This document shows positions 10,164 to 18,725 of a stretch of 64,000 bases of DNA, in pieces (position 1 is the first letter of the stretch; every line of letters starts with the position of its first letter). Made by a program: the position numbers and the translations under genes. Origin of the DNA: Desulfosudis oleivorans (lineage in GTDB: Bacteria > Desulfobacterota > Desulfobacteria > Desulfobacterales > SURF-7); contig DYJD01000001.1 in the NCBI GenBank assembly GCA_020723325.1, positions 310,001-374,000 of the forward strand. Reading direction: 5' to 3'. The notes under the pieces were generated by a model that was not told the origin of the DNA, made no database searches, and saw nothing but the letters and a program-made list of their open reading frames with translations.

Positions 10164-11018
10164 ATGAAATTCCATAAATACCACGGCCTGGGAAATGATT
10201 ATATCGTCATGGATCCGGATGAAACCGGTCTGGATACGTTGACGGTTCCCCAGATCCGTTGTATCTGCCATCGTCATTACGGCCTGGGTTCGGACGGGAT
10301 TCTGCTCGGGCCTTTGCCCGGCAAGGATGGTTTTGCCTTGCGGATCTTTAATCCCGATGGCAGTGAGGCGGAAAAAAGCGGCAATGGTTTGCGCATTTTT
10401 TCACGCTATCTTTGGGATAAGAAGCTGGTGGGACGACAGCCTTTTACCATCGCCACCTTGGGAGGCCCGGTAACCGCCACGATCCTTGCCGAAGGCCGCT
10501 TGATCACGGTGGATATGGGCCGGGTCAGTTTTCAAAGCCGGGATATTCCGGTGAACGGACCGGAGCGGGAAGTGTTGAACGAGACCATTGCGGTCAAGGG
10601 GGTAAGCTTCACTTTCTGCGCTGCCGGCATCGGCAATCCCCATTGTGTGATTCTGCGGGACAAGGCCCTGGCTTCCGAGGCCCACAAGTTCGGGCCGGCC
10701 ATTGAGATCCACGGGCTTTTTCCCAATAAAACCAATGTGCAGTTCATGGAAGTGCTGGATCGCGCCAATATCCGCATTGAGATCTGGGAACGGGGGGCCG
10801 GCTATACCCTGGCTTCGGGCAGCAGCAGCAGCGCCGCCGGCGCCGTGGCCCGCCGTTTGGGGCTTTGTGATGATCACATTACGGTGCACATGCCCGGGGG
10901 AAAGATCAGCCTTGAGATTCAAGCTGATTTCAGCGTTTCCATGACCGGTCCGGTGGTCAAAATCGGTGAAGGCCGCCTGTGGGCGGAAATGTTCAGCGCG
11001 GCGGACAAGCTGGAATAA
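10164..11018 (+). CDS. DapF-like protein lacking catalytic cysteines
   Basis: A 284-residue protein with the complete two-domain diaminopimelate epimerase fold signatures: MKFHKYHGLGNDYIVMDPD at the start, NPDGSEAEKSGNGLR in the first domain and WERGAGYTLASGSSSSAAGA in the second. Classical DapF uses two cysteines, in GNGxRC and ETLACGTG. Here these positions are Ile78 and Ser218, and the substrate-contacting Glu before TLA is Tyr214. It is therefore unlikely to racemise diaminopimelate by the two-base mechanism. I recall a sequence subfamily with the same SGNGLRIF and YTLASGSS signatures that is usually annotated as DapF, so this looks like a conserved divergent subfamily rather than decay. 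ATG 10164 is chosen because GAGGAAG (10153-10159) is well spaced; a longer frame from 10107 is not supported. It is followed 24 bases later by the NfeD/SPFH pair. Confidence 0.85.
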   Translation: MKFHKYHGLGNDYIVMDPDETGLDTLTVPQIRCICHRHYGLGSDGILLGPLPGKDGFALRIFNPDGSEAEKSGNGLRIFSRYLWDKKLVGRQPFTIATLGGPVTATILAEGRLITVDMGRVSFQSRDIPVNGPEREVLNETIAVKGVSFTFCAAGIGNPHCVILRDKALASEAHKFGPAIEIHGLFPNKTNVQFMEVLDRANIRIEIWERGAGYTLASGSSSSAAGAVARRLGLCDDHITVHMPGGKISLEIQADFSVSMTGPVVKIGEGRLWAEMFSAADKLE

Positions 11019-11042: not shown

Positions 11043-11513
11043 ATGGAATTTAATCTGTATTATTGGCATTGGCTGATTTTCGGCGCCGCATTAATCATTT
11101 GCGAAATATTCATCCCGAGTTTCACCATTTTTTGGTTCGGGCTGGCCGGTGTGCTGGTCAGTCTCTGTCTTTTTGTAATGCCGGGCATGGCGATCCAGTG
11201 GCAATTGCTGCTATGGGGTTTGTTCTCAACTTTTTTTGCAATTTTTTGGTTTCGATACATGAAACCGCGCATGACGGATAACACCAAGGCCGGCATTGCC
11301 CGGGAGGCGGTCATCGGTGAAAGCGGACTGGTGATCCGGGAGCCGCTGGCCGGCACGCGCGGCGCCGTGCGTTTTGCCACGCCGCTGTTCGGCGCCGAGG
11401 AATGGCCTTTTCTCTGCGATGAAGATGTTGCCGTGGGTGAGCGGGTCTTTGTGGCGGACATTTCCGGCAACACCTTGATTGTTTCGAAACGGAACGGGAC
11501 TTCCAAAACTTGA
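11043..11513 (+). CDS. NfeD-family membrane protein
   Basis: A 156-residue short-form NfeD protein. Residues about 8-75 hold three hydrophobic segments (HWLIFGAALIICEIFIPSF and following), and residues about 85-150 form the OB-fold domain with the typical IGESGLVIREPLAGTRGAVR and GERVFVADISGNTLIV stretches. NfeD proteins partner with SPFH/stomatin proteins in membrane microdomains, and the next gene (33 bases downstream) encodes exactly such a partner. The protease domain of long NfeD proteins is absent. Confidence 0.92.
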   Translation: MEFNLYYWHWLIFGAALIICEIFIPSFTIFWFGLAGVLVSLCLFVMPGMAIQWQLLLWGLFSTFFAIFWFRYMKPRMTDNTKAGIAREAVIGESGLVIREPLAGTRGAVRFATPLFGAEEWPFLCDEDVAVGERVFVADISGNTLIVSKRNGTSKT

Positions 11514-11545: not shown

Positions 11546-12400
11546 ATGCAAGGAATCATTGTTGTGCTGGTTTTTGTGGTTTTGGTGATCGTGACCATCT
11601 TCCTGGGCGTCCGCATCGTGCCCCAAGGCAACAAATACGTGGTTCAGCGTTTGGGGAAATTCCACAAAACCCTGGGGCCGGGTCTCAATATCATCATTCC
11701 CTATATGGATACGGTGGCGTACAAAGTGACCACCAAGGATATTGTGCTGGATATCCCCTCCCAGGAGGTCATTACCAAGGACAATGCGGTTATCATCGTC
11801 AATGCCGTGGCCTATATCAATCTGATTTCGCCGGAAAAGGCGGTTTACGGGGTCGAGGATTACCGGGTGGCTATTCAGAACCTGGTCCAGACCTCCCTGC
11901 GCTCCATTATCGGTGAAATGGATCTGGATGACGCCCTGTCTTCCCGGGATACCATTAAAGCCAAATTGAAAACCGCCATTTCCGATGATATCGCCGACTG
12001 GGGCATTACCATGAAAACCGTCGAGATTCAGGATATCAATCCTTCCCAGACCATGCAGCGCGCCATGGAGGAACAGGCTGCGGCGGAACGGGCCCGCCGG
12101 GCCACCGTTACCCGGGCCGAAGGTGAAAAATCGGCGGCGATTCTAGAGGCTGAAGGCCGGCTGGAGGCTTCCAAACGGGATGCCCAGGCCCAGGTAGTAT
12201 TGGCGGAAGCCAGCCAGCGGTCCATTCAAAAAGTGACGGATGCCATTCAAACCAATGAACTGCCGGTAATGTTTCTTTTGGGTGAACGTTATATAGAAGC
12301 CCTGAAAGAGATTTCCGGCGCGGCCAATGCCAAGGTGGTATTGCTGCCGGCGGATATTCCGGCGGCGGTCAGGGGGATCATGGGTGCCGGCGCCAAGTAA
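11546..12400 (+). CDS. SPFH/Band 7 stomatin-like protein (QmcA type)
   Basis: A 284-residue membrane-anchored SPFH protein. Residues 1-20 are a hydrophobic anchor, the Band 7 domain follows (RIVPQGNKYVVQRLGKFH onward, with TKDNAVIIVNAVAYINL), and a charged Ala/Glu-rich coiled coil (about residues 165-235) precedes a C-terminal AKVVLLPADIPAAVRGIMG tail. Such proteins form oligomeric cages that organise the inner membrane and modulate proteases such as FtsH. AGGCG-type binding site precedes ATG 11546. Pairing with NfeD upstream is the classical arrangement. Confidence 0.94.
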   Translation: MQGIIVVLVFVVLVIVTIFLGVRIVPQGNKYVVQRLGKFHKTLGPGLNIIIPYMDTVAYKVTTKDIVLDIPSQEVITKDNAVIIVNAVAYINLISPEKAVYGVEDYRVAIQNLVQTSLRSIIGEMDLDDALSSRDTIKAKLKTAISDDIADWGITMKTVEIQDINPSQTMQRAMEEQAAAERARRATVTRAEGEKSAAILEAEGRLEASKRDAQAQVVLAEASQRSIQKVTDAIQTNELPVMFLLGERYIEALKEISGAANAKVVLLPADIPAAVRGIMGAGAK

Positions 12401-12524
12401 TTGCAGCCGGCCTTGAGCATGGTTTCAGTCGTATCCCGGCCGGAAGCCCCGCTCCTGACAGGAGGACGACTGAAAAATCAGGCCGGGCCCCATGATCCGG
12501 GCCGGCCCACATCAGGTGACGACC

Positions 12525-13769
12525 ATGTTGAGTGAAACGGAAAAATTGGATGCCCTGACGATTTTGGGAATCGAGCTGAATCGGGTTCAGGATCTGGATA
12601 TCCTGATGCAGAAAATCCTTTCCGAGGCACGGCGTTTCACCAACGCCGATGCCGGCTCCATCTACATTCGGGAGGGGAACGAACTGCATTTCAACTACAC
12701 CCAGAACGATACCCTCCAGCAGCGGCTTTCGTCCGGGGAGAAGCTGATTTACTCCATCTTCAGCATTCCCATTGACGAAAAGAGCATCGCCGGCTACGTG
12801 GCCGCCACCGGCGCCCCCCTGAATCTCGAGGATGTCTATGCCATCGACCCCACCCGGCCTTATCATTTCAGCAGGAAATTCGACGATGCCTCCCATTACA
12901 CCACGCGCTCGGCCTTGACCCTGCCCCTGAAGAACGCCAAGGGCGTGGTTCTCGGCGTGCTGCAGGTGATCAATGCCCGGGATGAAACCGGCGGATTCAT
13001 CCCTTTTTCCGCCAAAGACGAAATAATGATGACCCATTTTGCCAGCGTGGCCTCGGTGGCCTTGCGACGGGCCCAGATGACCCGCTCCATGATCTTGCGT
13101 ATGATCCGCATGGCGGAAATGCGTGATCCCAAGGAGACCGGCGCCCATGTCAATCGCGTGGCCGGGTACGCCATTGAGATCTATGAAAAATGGGCCCAGA
13201 ACCACGGCCACGACATTCACGAGATTGAAAAGAATCGCGATATTTTCCGGATGGCGGCCATGCTCCATGACGTGGGCAAAATCGCCATATCCGATCAAAT
13301 TTTGAAAAAACCGGGCCGCTTCAACACCGAGGAATTTGAAATCATGAAGCAGCATACAATTTTCGGAGCCCAGTTGTTTCATGACCGCCAGTCGGATTTT
13401 GACGAAGTGGCGGCCCAGGTGGCCTTGACCCACCATGAATGGTGGAACGGTATGGGATATCCCGGGCATGTGGACCCCCTTACCAACACTCCTTTGGTTG
13501 AATACGGTCTTTGCAACGGAAAGCCCAAAGGCAAACAAGGCCATGAAATTCCCATTTTCGGCCGGGTGGTTTCCTTGGTGGATGTATACGACGCCCTTTG
13601 TTCGGCCAGGGTGTACAAGGAAGCCTGGGATGAATCAAAAGTATTGTCCATTATCAAAGAGGGGTCCGGTCTTCAATTTGATCCGGAGTTGGTTGAAATT
13701 TTTTTCGCTTCCATGGATATAATTCGTTCCATTCAAAGTCGATATCAGGATAAAAACAAGTATAGTTAG
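12525..13769 (+). CDS. GAF-HD-GYP cyclic-di-GMP phosphodiesterase
   Basis: About 414 residues. An N-terminal GAF domain (about 15-180, with NADAGSIYIREGNELHF) is fused to an HD-GYP domain (about 190-400). The catalytic motifs are complete: HDVGK at 248-252, HHE from residue 303 and GYP at 311-313. HD-GYP proteins hydrolyse cyclic-di-GMP or related dinucleotides at a bi- or trinuclear metal centre. ATG 12525 is preferred over ATG 12492 because AGGTG (12514-12518) is correctly spaced. The next small membrane-protein gene follows after 26 bases. It is cytoplasmic, with no membrane segments. Confidence 0.92.
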   Translation: MLSETEKLDALTILGIELNRVQDLDILMQKILSEARRFTNADAGSIYIREGNELHFNYTQNDTLQQRLSSGEKLIYSIFSIPIDEKSIAGYVAATGAPLNLEDVYAIDPTRPYHFSRKFDDASHYTTRSALTLPLKNAKGVVLGVLQVINARDETGGFIPFSAKDEIMMTHFASVASVALRRAQMTRSMILRMIRMAEMRDPKETGAHVNRVAGYAIEIYEKWAQNHGHDIHEIEKNRDIFRMAAMLHDVGKIAISDQILKKPGRFNTEEFEIMKQHTIFGAQLFHDRQSDFDEVAAQVALTHHEWWNGMGYPGHVDPLTNTPLVEYGLCNGKPKGKQGHEIPIFGRVVSLVDVYDALCSARVYKEAWDESKVLSIIKEGSGLQFDPELVEIFFASMDIIRSIQSRYQDKNKYS

Positions 13770-14097: not shown

Positions 14098-15513
14098 CTA
14101 AAAATATTCCTGGAGCCCTTGGGGAATGAATTCATGGATCATCACTTCCCGCCATTTATCGGTTTTCAAAGCATCCGGGCCGGGGGGGCGGCCGGTTCCA
14201 AGCACCTGGCCCAACCACACGCATTCCTCCTTTGAAAGTTCCAGGGCCGCGGTTTTGCGTTTTTCCAGCACAATGCTTTTGGTCTTGTTCAGGCGGATTT
14301 CCTTGAAAAGGTGCCGGTAGGAAACTTGCGGCCGCAGGGCCGCCTCATAATAGGTCAGGGTGGCGGTGAATTGCGTAAAATCAACCAGCGGCCAGGCTGG
14401 GCGGCCCACAAAAAGCAGGGTTCCTTTTCCTTCCAGGGACCATACGGCCGGGTCCAGACCTTGGCGGCCGAAATTTTCAACCAGAAGCCCCAGGTTCTCA
14501 GAAGAACCCTTGAGACAAAGGGCGCGAATGAAGCCGTTTTCCGTGATGTCTTCATGGGCTTTTTTCAGCAGCCGGGCGTTTTTTTTGCGGGCGGCAGCAC
14601 CCTGGTGGCGGTGTTTATAGACAAAGGAGCAATAATTGATGGGCAGATCGATCTGCGCAAGCACCGTATGATGCAGCAGTCGCAGGGCCGCAAGTTCCGA
14701 GGCCAGGACCGTCACTTTTTCGCCATGCAGGTAGGTATAGTCCCGCGGGATCAATTTGGCGCTGTTATAGGGAGTCAGGCGCAGTTGATGCAGATTGAGG
14801 AAATTGACTCCCATGGCCTGCATTTCAAGCACTTTTTGTTTGAGCAGGTCATAGTCTTCCGGAATCATCGGTATCTCCACCGTCACCACCGGTATGATAC
14901 CGACGGCTCGGCCCAAAGGGGCAAGCTGGTAGTTGACGGCGCCGATGTCAAAGCGGATTTCATCCAGCCCCGCATCTGCAAGCAGTTTCAGTTTTTCCGT
15001 TGTAACCAGACTGCCGTTGGTATACAGCCAGACATGGCAAGCGGAGCCGAACCTGCCTTTGATGGCCTTCAAGTATTGCAGGGCGCGCTCAAAAACCAGG
15101 AAGGGTTCGCCGCCGCTTAGGCCCACCCCTTTATAGTTAAAGGCGGCAAGATAATCCGCATAGTCAACGGCCCGGGTAAAGGGCACAGTCTGGGTTACCG
15201 GCGGGCCGTCATCATCCTGGGCTGTGGGGCAATAGAAACAACCGCAGTTGCATCGGCCGGCGATGAACAAGCAGGACCAGTCGCCATTGCCGCAGTGGAT
15301 ACAGCCTGGTGAAAGCCGCCGGCAGTCCAGTTTGGTGTCGTGATATCCCAGGGAGATTTTGCCTGAAAGTTCCTGCAGCAGGGCCGACCGCTCCCTTTCA
15401 AAATTAAGGGCCTGTTCCGGCAGGAGCCATTGCAGGCGCTGGTAATCCGGGCCGTACTCCTCCTGATTGGCGTTGATGATCCGGTTGCGGGTTTGGGAAT
15501 CGGTATTCAGCAT
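14098..15513 (-). CDS. Radical SAM protein, PflA-like
   Basis: A 471-residue radical SAM enzyme. The cluster motif is CNCGCFYC (CX3CX2C) and the SAM-binding GGEP motif is in VGLSGGEPFLVFERA, followed by HVWLYTNGSL. Before the core there is an extra Cys-rich stretch (CRRLSPGCIHCGNGDWSC) that could hold a further cluster or zinc. The long C-terminal half is not a recognised SPASM domain. It is related to pyruvate-formate-lyase activating enzyme-like proteins, but no glycyl radical enzyme is nearby. It begins 11 bases after the stop of the LTA-synthase-like gene, so the two are probably translated from one mRNA. Substrate unknown. Confidence 0.85.
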   Translation of the reverse strand: MLNTDSQTRNRIINANQEEYGPDYQRLQWLLPEQALNFERERSALLQELSGKISLGYHDTKLDCRRLSPGCIHCGNGDWSCLFIAGRCNCGCFYCPTAQDDDGPPVTQTVPFTRAVDYADYLAAFNYKGVGLSGGEPFLVFERALQYLKAIKGRFGSACHVWLYTNGSLVTTEKLKLLADAGLDEIRFDIGAVNYQLAPLGRAVGIIPVVTVEIPMIPEDYDLLKQKVLEMQAMGVNFLNLHQLRLTPYNSAKLIPRDYTYLHGEKVTVLASELAALRLLHHTVLAQIDLPINYCSFVYKHRHQGAAARKKNARLLKKAHEDITENGFIRALCLKGSSENLGLLVENFGRQGLDPAVWSLEGKGTLLFVGRPAWPLVDFTQFTATLTYYEAALRPQVSYRHLFKEIRLNKTKSIVLEKRKTAALELSKEECVWLGQVLGTGRPPGPDALKTDKWREVMIHEFIPQGLQEYF

Positions 15514-17498: not shown

Positions 17499-17696
17499 AC
17501 ATCCTCCTGAAGGAAAAAATCCGAAATTCGAATATCGAAACAAATTCAAATCAGCGGATTTCCGTTTCGCAATTCCGGTTGAATTGATCTCATTAGCCTG
17601 ATCCGGTGTTGTTTTCAACCGATATTGAAGGAATGGATGAAGATTTCATTTGCATTGGACTTTACATCAGGCCTTTAATAAGTATCTGCCTGGGTT

Positions 17697-18725
17697 CTAT
17701 GGTTTAATCATGACCTTCATCTGATCCGGCAAGGGCGATGAGAGCTGCTGGAAGGTATTCTGGACCTCATCAAAACCAATGGTTTTGGTAACCAGGTCTT
17801 CCACTGCAAGGCGTTTTTCAGCAATGAATGTGAGGGCTGTGTCGAATTCATCCAGGTGATAGGCAAAGGCTCCGAGGATGCGGATTTCTTTGATCACCGC
17901 AAGGAGGGTGGGGATTTGTTGCGCGGCAAAGCTGATTCCTGCCAGAACCAGGGTCCCCCTGGGTTTCAGGGCTGCAAGGGCCGCATGGCAGCCCTGATCT
18001 TTTGCCGAAGTTTCAATGGCCATGTCAAAGCCGCTGCCGGAAAGCTTTTTCAGTTTGCAGACCAATTCCGGATCTTTGCCATTCAGAACCGCATCCACAT
18101 CCCCCCTGCTTTTGGCAAAAGCCCTTCGAAAAGCATCCACTTCCGATAAAACTACCAGGCCGGCGCCGGCAATTCTAGCCCAGGCTGCAACTAGAACACC
18201 GATGGGGCCGCCCCCCACAATGAGAACACGGTCGCCGACCTTGATTCCGGCCTGACGTACAGCGTGTAAGGCCACGGCAGCCGGTTCGATCAGCACGGCC
18301 TGCTTATCGGAGATTGAATCCGGCAGGGCGCGCACCATGTCGGGCCGCAGCAGCATGTATTCAGCGAAGGCTCCGGGGCTGTTGTTGCCGGGGATGGGCC
18401 GTTTCATGCCCTGAAGGCAGAGATGGCTTAAGCCGCCCGTGCAACTCTCGCAAAATCCGCAAGGATTCAGAGGCAGGGCCGTGATCCTGGCCTCTTTTGC
18501 AAGATCGCTGCGTGGGCCGGGATCATCCACTGTTCCGCAGAATTCATGGCCCAGGATCAAGCCCGGTTTTCCGTCCATACCCAGGCCGGATTGCCAGTAG
18601 TGAAGATCCGAACCGCAGATGCCGCAGGCGCAAACCCGCATGCGCACTTGCCGGCCGTCTGTTTCCGGCATGGGGACTTCCGCTAATTTCAATAAGCGCG
18701 GTCCTTCCAATCGGATTGCATGCAT
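17697..18725 (-). CDS. Zinc-dependent medium-chain alcohol dehydrogenase
   Basis: A 342-residue MDR-family dehydrogenase similar to sorbitol and threonine dehydrogenases. The catalytic zinc region is CGICGSDLHYW and GHEFCG, the structural zinc is held by four Cys in CGFCESCTGGLSHLC, and the Rossmann fold shows VLIVGGGPIGVLVAAW. It should oxidise a secondary alcohol or polyol with NAD(P). ATG 18725 has AGGAGG seven bases upstream and lies only 2 bases after the stop of the molybdopterin oxidoreductase, so the two genes are clearly coupled. The divergent GntR-type regulator is the likely controller. Confidence 0.92.
   Translation of the reverse strand: MHAIRLEGPRLLKLAEVPMPETDGRQVRMRVCACGICGSDLHYWQSGLGMDGKPGLILGHEFCGTVDDPGPRSDLAKEARITALPLNPCGFCESCTGGLSHLCLQGMKRPIPGNNSPGAFAEYMLLRPDMVRALPDSISDKQAVLIEPAAVALHAVRQAGIKVGDRVLIVGGGPIGVLVAAWARIAGAGLVVLSEVDAFRRAFAKSRGDVDAVLNGKDPELVCKLKKLSGSGFDMAIETSAKDQGCHAALAALKPRGTLVLAGISFAAQQIPTLLAVIKEIRILGAFAYHLDEFDTALTFIAEKRLAVEDLVTKTIGFDEVQNTFQQLSSPLPDQMKVMIKP

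Follow-up and report, generated by a model that had tools for sequence, protein, structure and literature searches.

The gene at positions 10164-11018 (+ strand) of the window, the whole 64,000-nucleotide stretch of Desulfosudis oleivorans DNA analysed here, encodes a 284-residue homologue of the DAP epimerase DapF (P0001) with serine in the places of both catalytic cysteines. DapF is the textbook example of a cofactor-free epimerase working with two thiols, and inhibitors directed at thiols target it; with both catalytic cysteines gone this classical mechanism is impossible for P0001. The Ser/Ser form is a clade spanning several phyla and not a lone decayed gene. Since its DAP site is retained, Cys-type DapF is displaced where it occurs and the DapF-bypassing enzyme Ddh is lacking, the best-supported reading is that P0001 functions as a DAP epimerase with a Ser/Ser pair, a variant of DapF, to which we give a probability of roughly 0.55.

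The open reading frame is uninterrupted, as had been claimed in an earlier note on this DNA, and a GAGGAAG lies 4 nt before its ATG. The strong fold signatures described in the same note are confirmed by profile searches, TIGR00652 giving 229.7 bits, twice its cut-off of 114.65, and Pfam PF01678 giving 185.7 bits against a cut-off of 34.7; no proline racemase/hydroxyproline epimerase family matched P0001 in the Pfam or NCBIfam scans at 0.001. Modelled with AlphaFold2 at a mean pLDDT of 94.8, P0001 displays the two-domain DapF fold, with Ser72 and Ser218 predicted to stand directly ahead of helices 73-85 and 219-231, and its best fold matches in the PDB are DapFs and the O-ureidoserine racemase, with Z up to 37.

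P0001 was aligned to solved DapFs. Ser72 (codon AGC, 10377-10379, +; motif KSGNG) stands where Anabaena DapF has Cys75, the first of the two catalytic Cys, and Ser218 (codon TCG, 10815-10817, +; motif LASGSS) takes the place of the second. The alignment therefore agrees with the earlier note on the loss of both catalytic cysteines and on Ser218, but Ile78 (10395-10397, +), which had been taken for the other replacement, aligns with the conserved non-catalytic Cys of RCF. Tyr214 had likewise been read as replacing the substrate Glu; the Glu in contact with DAP (Glu215 in Anabaena) is Glu209 here and is invariant, and position 214 in Cys-type DapFs is E in 42, V in 13 and I in 7 of 62 rows. P0001 and 108/108 aligned rows of its clade thus lack the two catalytic cysteines of DapF. 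Similarly, the PROSITE active-site signature for DapF, which contains Cys and is quoted in an excerpt of PMC8225329, matches 0/108 Ser rows versus 98/106 other rows; when its Cys is read as Ser, 106/108 Ser rows match.

The DAP site is retained. In Anabaena DapF (PMC12039745), Asn66, Asn164, Asn197, Glu215 and Arg216 grip DAP at its distal end, while Asn13 touches the amine at the proximal one. The equivalent residues of P0001, all with codons on the + strand, are present in 108/108 Ser rows: Asn11 for the proximal alpha-amine contact of Asn13 (10194-10196), Asn63 for the distal contact of Asn66 (10350-10352), Asn158 and Asn191 for the distal carboxylate contacts of Asn164 and Asn197 (10635-10637 and 10734-10736), and Glu209-Arg210 for the distal amine/carboxylate contacts of Glu215-Arg216 (10788-10793). 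The equivalent of Asn158 is Val in 28/62 Cys rows, yet it is invariant in the Ser rows. Furthermore, Tyr13, Ser43, Lys71, Ser72, Ile78, Cys161, Gln193, Tyr214, Ser218 and Ser221 are constant throughout the Ser class but seldom or never seen in the Cys class. The last of these (codon 10824-10826, +) is Gly in 62/62 Cys rows and, by analogy, may support Ser218. One Ser/Ser DapF outside the 108-row alignment (L295; genome G492, contig C84, ~17600-18436) has Asn at 214, and its genome also holds another DapF, which hints at relaxed or changed function where both coexist.

The joint alignment of 170 homologues comprises 108 Ser/Ser rows, 80 of them named GTDB records, and 62 Cys/Cys rows, with no intermediate. 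S72/I78/Y214/S218 occur together in 108/108 Ser-type rows and Cys is found at both catalytic places in 62/62 Cys-type rows; a further row with an insertion (L179), misaligned and Ser/Ser by hand reading, is kept outside the 108, and 44 further non-Ser rows all have Cys at the first place. When named GTDB genomes were scanned with a 17-row alignment, at least 578 confirmed relatives were returned, and the best 80 of these, which were kept, show S72/I78/Y214/S218 in 80/80; since the scan patterns, one of them covering the WERGAG motif, were drawn from Ser-type rows, these figures describe spread and not the proportions of Cys or mixed types, the unbiased family-wide searches being the order, Verrucomicrobiota, cyanobacterial and Desulfobacterota samples below. 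The titles of Ser-type records cover Verrucomicrobia, Desulfobacteraceae, Planctomycetes, Chloroflexi, Armatimonadota, cyanobacteria and others, labels which for MAGs may be wrong. The tree of homologues proposed in the earlier note was built by a quick method from 37 Ser and 35 Cys rows, and all Ser rows fall in one clade (SH-aLRT 100). Its stem, 1.23 changes per column with the trait columns kept in, would also fit a change of function. Two cyanobacterial Ser rows adjoin rows with verrucomicrobial titles (support 96), a placement which suggests that Ser DapF may have been transferred between phyla.

Across genomes, Ser/Ser DapF largely excludes Cys DapF. The order sample consists of 96 genomes of the window's order, mostly with one DapF. 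Ser DapF is present in 17 of them and is the sole DapF in 14, while Cys DapF accompanies it in 3 (G025, G027 and G032) and another DapF match was found in 71 of the 79 non-Ser genomes. The 68 of these 71 matches that were read have Cys at the first place, the one of G046 being truncated before the second, and those of G060, G078 and G086 fall outside the 68. The Cys DapF count also leaves out a partial DapF-like C-terminal half in the Ser genome G024 (L290, contig C83, 56894-57085, 36.9 bits), which carries the Cys motif ETLSCGTG with ERA for ERG and is perhaps a fragment or a racemase of another type. When 50 of the 80 GTDB genomes were chosen for their Ser DapF, 44 gave no other TIGR00652 match, five (G099, G107, G108, G122 and G137) held a second DapF read as Cys, and G129 held two adjacent extra DapF pieces outside the rows read.

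In Verrucomicrobiota, 41 of 193 genomes display a Ser-type score and 40 of these are without other DapF (G097, G105 and G114 as seen in the set of 50, the other 38 of the 41 checked separately), so that another match occurs in 1/41 Ser versus 137/152 non-Ser genomes; here 15/41 Ser-type and 27/137 other genomes were read and the rest assigned by score (at least 320.9 versus at most 227.2 bits). In the exception, G257, a divergent Cys-type DapF-like protein (L180, contig C156) with ELCGNGTACF, EFGVAETLACGTG, is encoded in addition to the Ser type. Ser DapF also occurs in cyanobacteria (3 of 116 genomes, G414 with Ser only and the other two with a second DapF) and in Desulfobacterota (4 of 197, one with another DapF), two samples in which the Ser copies and a few of the others were read. 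One-sided Fisher tests for exclusion, which ignore shared ancestry, give p = 7e-9 for the order, 1e-27 for Verrucomicrobiota and 9e-4 for Desulfobacterota, and a non-significant 0.12 for cyanobacteria; the samples overlap in a few genomes. The complete genome CP011265.1 (IMCC26134, titled Verrucomicrobia) holds the Ser type only. Given the coexistence of a second DapF in some genomes, the two types are not always interchangeable. In G089 (contig C9) and G078 (contig C109) DapF matches lie within long frames of 826 and 1214 aa, possible fusions. Selenocysteine was also considered through in-frame TGA codons in the Verrucomicrobiota search and rejected, the TGA at the frame end being the stop codon.

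DapL yields LL-DAP, bypassing DapD, DapC and DapE, and Ddh bypasses DapF, as stated in an excerpt of PMC4176475. The genome of the window (7.22 Mb, 99.5% complete, 113 contigs) encodes DapL (584 bits), MurE (495 bits, with a DNPRSE motif) and a LysA-like protein whose 285.7 bits lie just under the cut-off of 297.9 and whose best-matching family is lysA. No Ddh match and no further PF01678/TIGR00652 match were found in this genome, and a read-through of the ORF list of its LysA and DapL regions turned up no other epimerase candidate. The second, Cys-containing DapF that the earlier note had proposed to look for was thus not found, and the DapL offered as an alternative check, though encoded, makes LL-DAP upstream of the epimerase, which rules it out on pathway grounds as a bypass of DapF. 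The note had named the lack of a second DAP route as grounds against its own interpretation, which is weakened by this result. Its statement that P0001 cannot be a classical epimerase holds for the two-thiol mechanism; however, where it warned that DapF annotation would mislead, a genome with DapL, MurE and a LysA-like protein and without second DapF or Ddh implies that the annotation may be functionally right, even if the chemistry must differ from that of Cys DapF.

The same context recurs in other genomes with Ser DapF only. Ddh exceeds its cut-off in 3 of 80 (G163, G225 and G244), leaving 77 without it; any match at 0.001 was seen in 15 of 80, of which 12 are weak (141.5 bits against a cut-off of 180.6 in G067, under 25 bits in the others). 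A LysA match is present in 43 of 44 Ser-only genomes and is over the cut-off in 26 of the 44, G008 showing a fragment only. In the 30 Ser-only genomes searched for them, MurE was found in 27, with a DNPR motif in 20 of the 27 loci, and a TIGR03542-type DapL in 23. Within the window's order, the LysA-like decarboxylase of Ser-only genomes mostly scores around the lysA cut-off. By eye, its gene adjoins an AsnC/Lrp-like regulator in L204 (8622-9899), L206 and L209 and none in L211; in L214 the three genes form a row in which DapL separates an AsnC-like regulator from the LysA-like gene.

As the earlier note had it, the dapF homologue is co-directional with genes for an NfeD-like protein (11043-11513, +; PF01957, 33.1 bits, cut-off 29.1) and an SPFH/Band 7 protein (11546-12400, +; PF01145, 138.4 bits). 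This pair stands beside Ser dapF in 0/96 other Ser loci, many of which have short flanks, and no NfeD relative was detected at 1e-5 among their ORFs of at least 90 aa. Neighbour clustering over the 96 loci, from which L001 and L002 (the window's own gene) were left out, gave no consistent neighbour, DAP-related or other. A conserved operon was rejected, as clusters other than the gene itself and antisense frames span at most 22-24 of the 96 loci; these unannotated clusters are read as lineage-level synteny. Further along the window, a GAF + HD-domain signalling protein (12492-13769) and a radical SAM protein (14098-15513) are encoded near the P0001 gene.

Compared with known systems, P0001 is closest in fold to enzymes with two cysteines. 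The Cys/Cys DapFs of Anabaena (9mro), Arabidopsis (3ejx), P. aeruginosa (8qzy) and E. coli (4ijz) share its fold (VIA Z 32.7-36.7, 33-36% identity) and its side-chain DAP contacts, and P0001 departs from them by Ser for both catalytic Cys, Ile for the Cys of RCF and the clade-specific Lys71, Tyr214 and Ser221. The O-ureidoserine racemase 7vdy, a secondary-metabolite racemase of the two-Cys type, shares this fold as well, with a VIA Z of 37.0, an rmsd of 1.6 across 275 residues and 31% identity. The DapF mutants C73S (2q9h; Z 34.8) and C217S (2q9j; Z 34.4) each carry one change of the P0001 type; these are engineered single mutants, whereas P0001 is natural and combines both changes with co-varying residues. 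HisR of F. nucleatum and CntK of S. aureus, which an excerpt of PMC11602996 describes as cofactor-independent histidine racemases, have a DapF-like fold (Z ~23-26, 15-18% identity), but unlike P0001 they use two catalytic Cys and histidine as substrate; lacking the required cysteines, P0001 was rejected as a racemase of their type.

Serine as an acid/base, proposed here for both places of P0001, is found in the place of one Cys in the proline racemase superfamily. Part of PMC4113996 reports a Ser93/Cys pair with two-base epimerisation in 4-hydroxyproline 2-epimerase and Ser90/Thr256 in t3Hyp dehydratase, in which Asn93, three residues further along, positions the catalytic Ser90. These hydroxyproline epimerases and dehydratase have a fold related to that of P0001 (Z ~24-28, 14-16% identity), but combine one Ser with Cys or Thr and act on other substrates. 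Fold matches over the superfamily reach Z ~23-28 at 10-16% identity, well below those of DapFs, and membership of P0001 in it was rejected because its sequence and fold matches are well under those to DapFs. No paper on a Ser/Ser DapF was found in the open-licence PMC literature, nor a Ser/Ser epimerase of DapF fold in the searches made.

Taken as a Ser/Ser epimerase, P0001 would receive LL-DAP from DapL, grip its distal L-centre through Asn63, Asn158, Asn191, Glu209 and Arg210, and clamp the carboxylate of the proximal end where two helices begin, at their N-termini. The proximal alpha-carbon would then be inverted with one of Ser72 and Ser218 acting as base and the other as acid, and the product, meso-DAP, would pass to MurE and LysA. 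Substrate binding, activity and serine activation are predictions in this scheme. Candidate helpers of the serines are the clade-specific Lys71, which adjoins Ser72, Tyr214, and Ser221, three residues after Ser218, a spacing analogous to that of the dehydratase pair. The chief doubt concerns the chemistry, cysteine being a far stronger acid than serine. In addition, the PddB mutants C101S and C233S are described as losing activity almost completely and, in the excerpt of PMC11602996, the HisR mutants C67S and C209S as having greatly reduced activity; given such losses in relatives, a Ser/Ser enzyme is unlikely to work through a mere exchange of Cys for Ser. The main biological doubt is the coexistence of both DapF types in some genomes, and the long stem, the LysA-like score under the cut-off in the genome of the window, the little DAP in Opitutaceae and the lack of a consistent neighbour also count against the epimerase reading.

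The strongest competitor, which we consider improbable but still deserving of weight, is that the Ser/Ser protein acts on another substrate, or by elimination or isomerisation, and that Ser-only genomes draw their meso-DAP from an unrecognised epimerase. Indeed, a Fusobacterium protein predicted as DapF proved to be a histidine racemase (excerpt of PMC11602996), the sister superfamily includes a dehydratase with a Ser/Thr pair (PMC4113996, in part), and some genomes keep both DapF types. However, the side-chain DAP contacts are invariant in 108/108 Ser rows, a second, unrecognised enzyme would be needed in nearly every Ser-only genome, and the absence of Cys DapF mostly exactly where Ser DapF is present would go unexplained.

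It is less probable again that Ser-only lineages have no need of meso-DAP, their MurE and LysA using LL-DAP and the Ser/Ser protein being a relic or a DAP-binding regulator. Opitutaceae, a name that several Ser-only records carry as their title, lend this some credit, as in the strains of Rast et al. DL-DAP was not seen by TLC and DAP was low by GC/MS according to an excerpt of PMC5303756, which also lists a DapF, of Ser or Cys type, for them; moreover, LysA-like scores fall just under or over the lysA cut-off in most Ser-only genomes of the window's order. Yet LysA reaches 437-452 bits against 297.9 in five verrucomicrobial-titled Ser-only genomes (G097, G098, G101, G114 and G116), G127 giving only 290, and the MurE of the verrucomicrobium V. 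spinosum, which may or may not have the Ser type, takes LL-DAP at <1% of the meso rate (PMC3681970, in part). Nor would one expect the Ser/Ser pair and the DAP site of a relic to stay constant from phylum to phylum.

Slightly more doubtful still is a DapF that has lost catalysis and is retained for a role in protein-protein contacts, comparable to the stimulation of RppH by E. coli DapF. Both acid/base residues are altered, regulation of RppH by DapF is reported in part of PMC4227774, and RppH-DapF structures are among the fold matches; against this, the substrate-pocket residues are invariant across the Ser clade and the Ser type mostly replaces the Cys enzyme rather than accompanying it. Finally, the idea of an ordinary Cys DapF that was misread in sequencing or decayed into a pseudogene is refuted by the same changes in 108 rows, 80 of them from named GTDB records.

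Returning to the Ser/Ser epimerase, the chances are about even that it represents a widespread second chemical class of DAP epimerase, with Ser/Ser two-base proton transfer, which has repeatedly displaced the thiol enzyme in the Opitutae-type Verrucomicrobiota examined, in parts of Desulfobacterota, in Planctomycetes- and Chloroflexi-titled genomes and in at least one cyanobacterium. In most Ser-type genomes examined the Ser DapF is the only version found, so that either the serines suffice or another enzyme awaits discovery. A thiol-free clade which keeps the DAP site asks whether serine can perform the proton transfer of DapF, and either outcome would be new as far as the open-licence literature was searched. 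The Ser/Ser DapF also bears on an old report in which subdivision-4 Verrucomicrobia seem devoid of DAP, and the Opitutaceae belong to a group formerly believed to be DAP-free. Should serine be capable of this chemistry, one would expect the enzyme to withstand thiol-reactive inhibitors, and the known chemistry of the DapF class has to be broadened; otherwise, several bacterial groups either have an unrecognised source of meso-DAP or manage without any.
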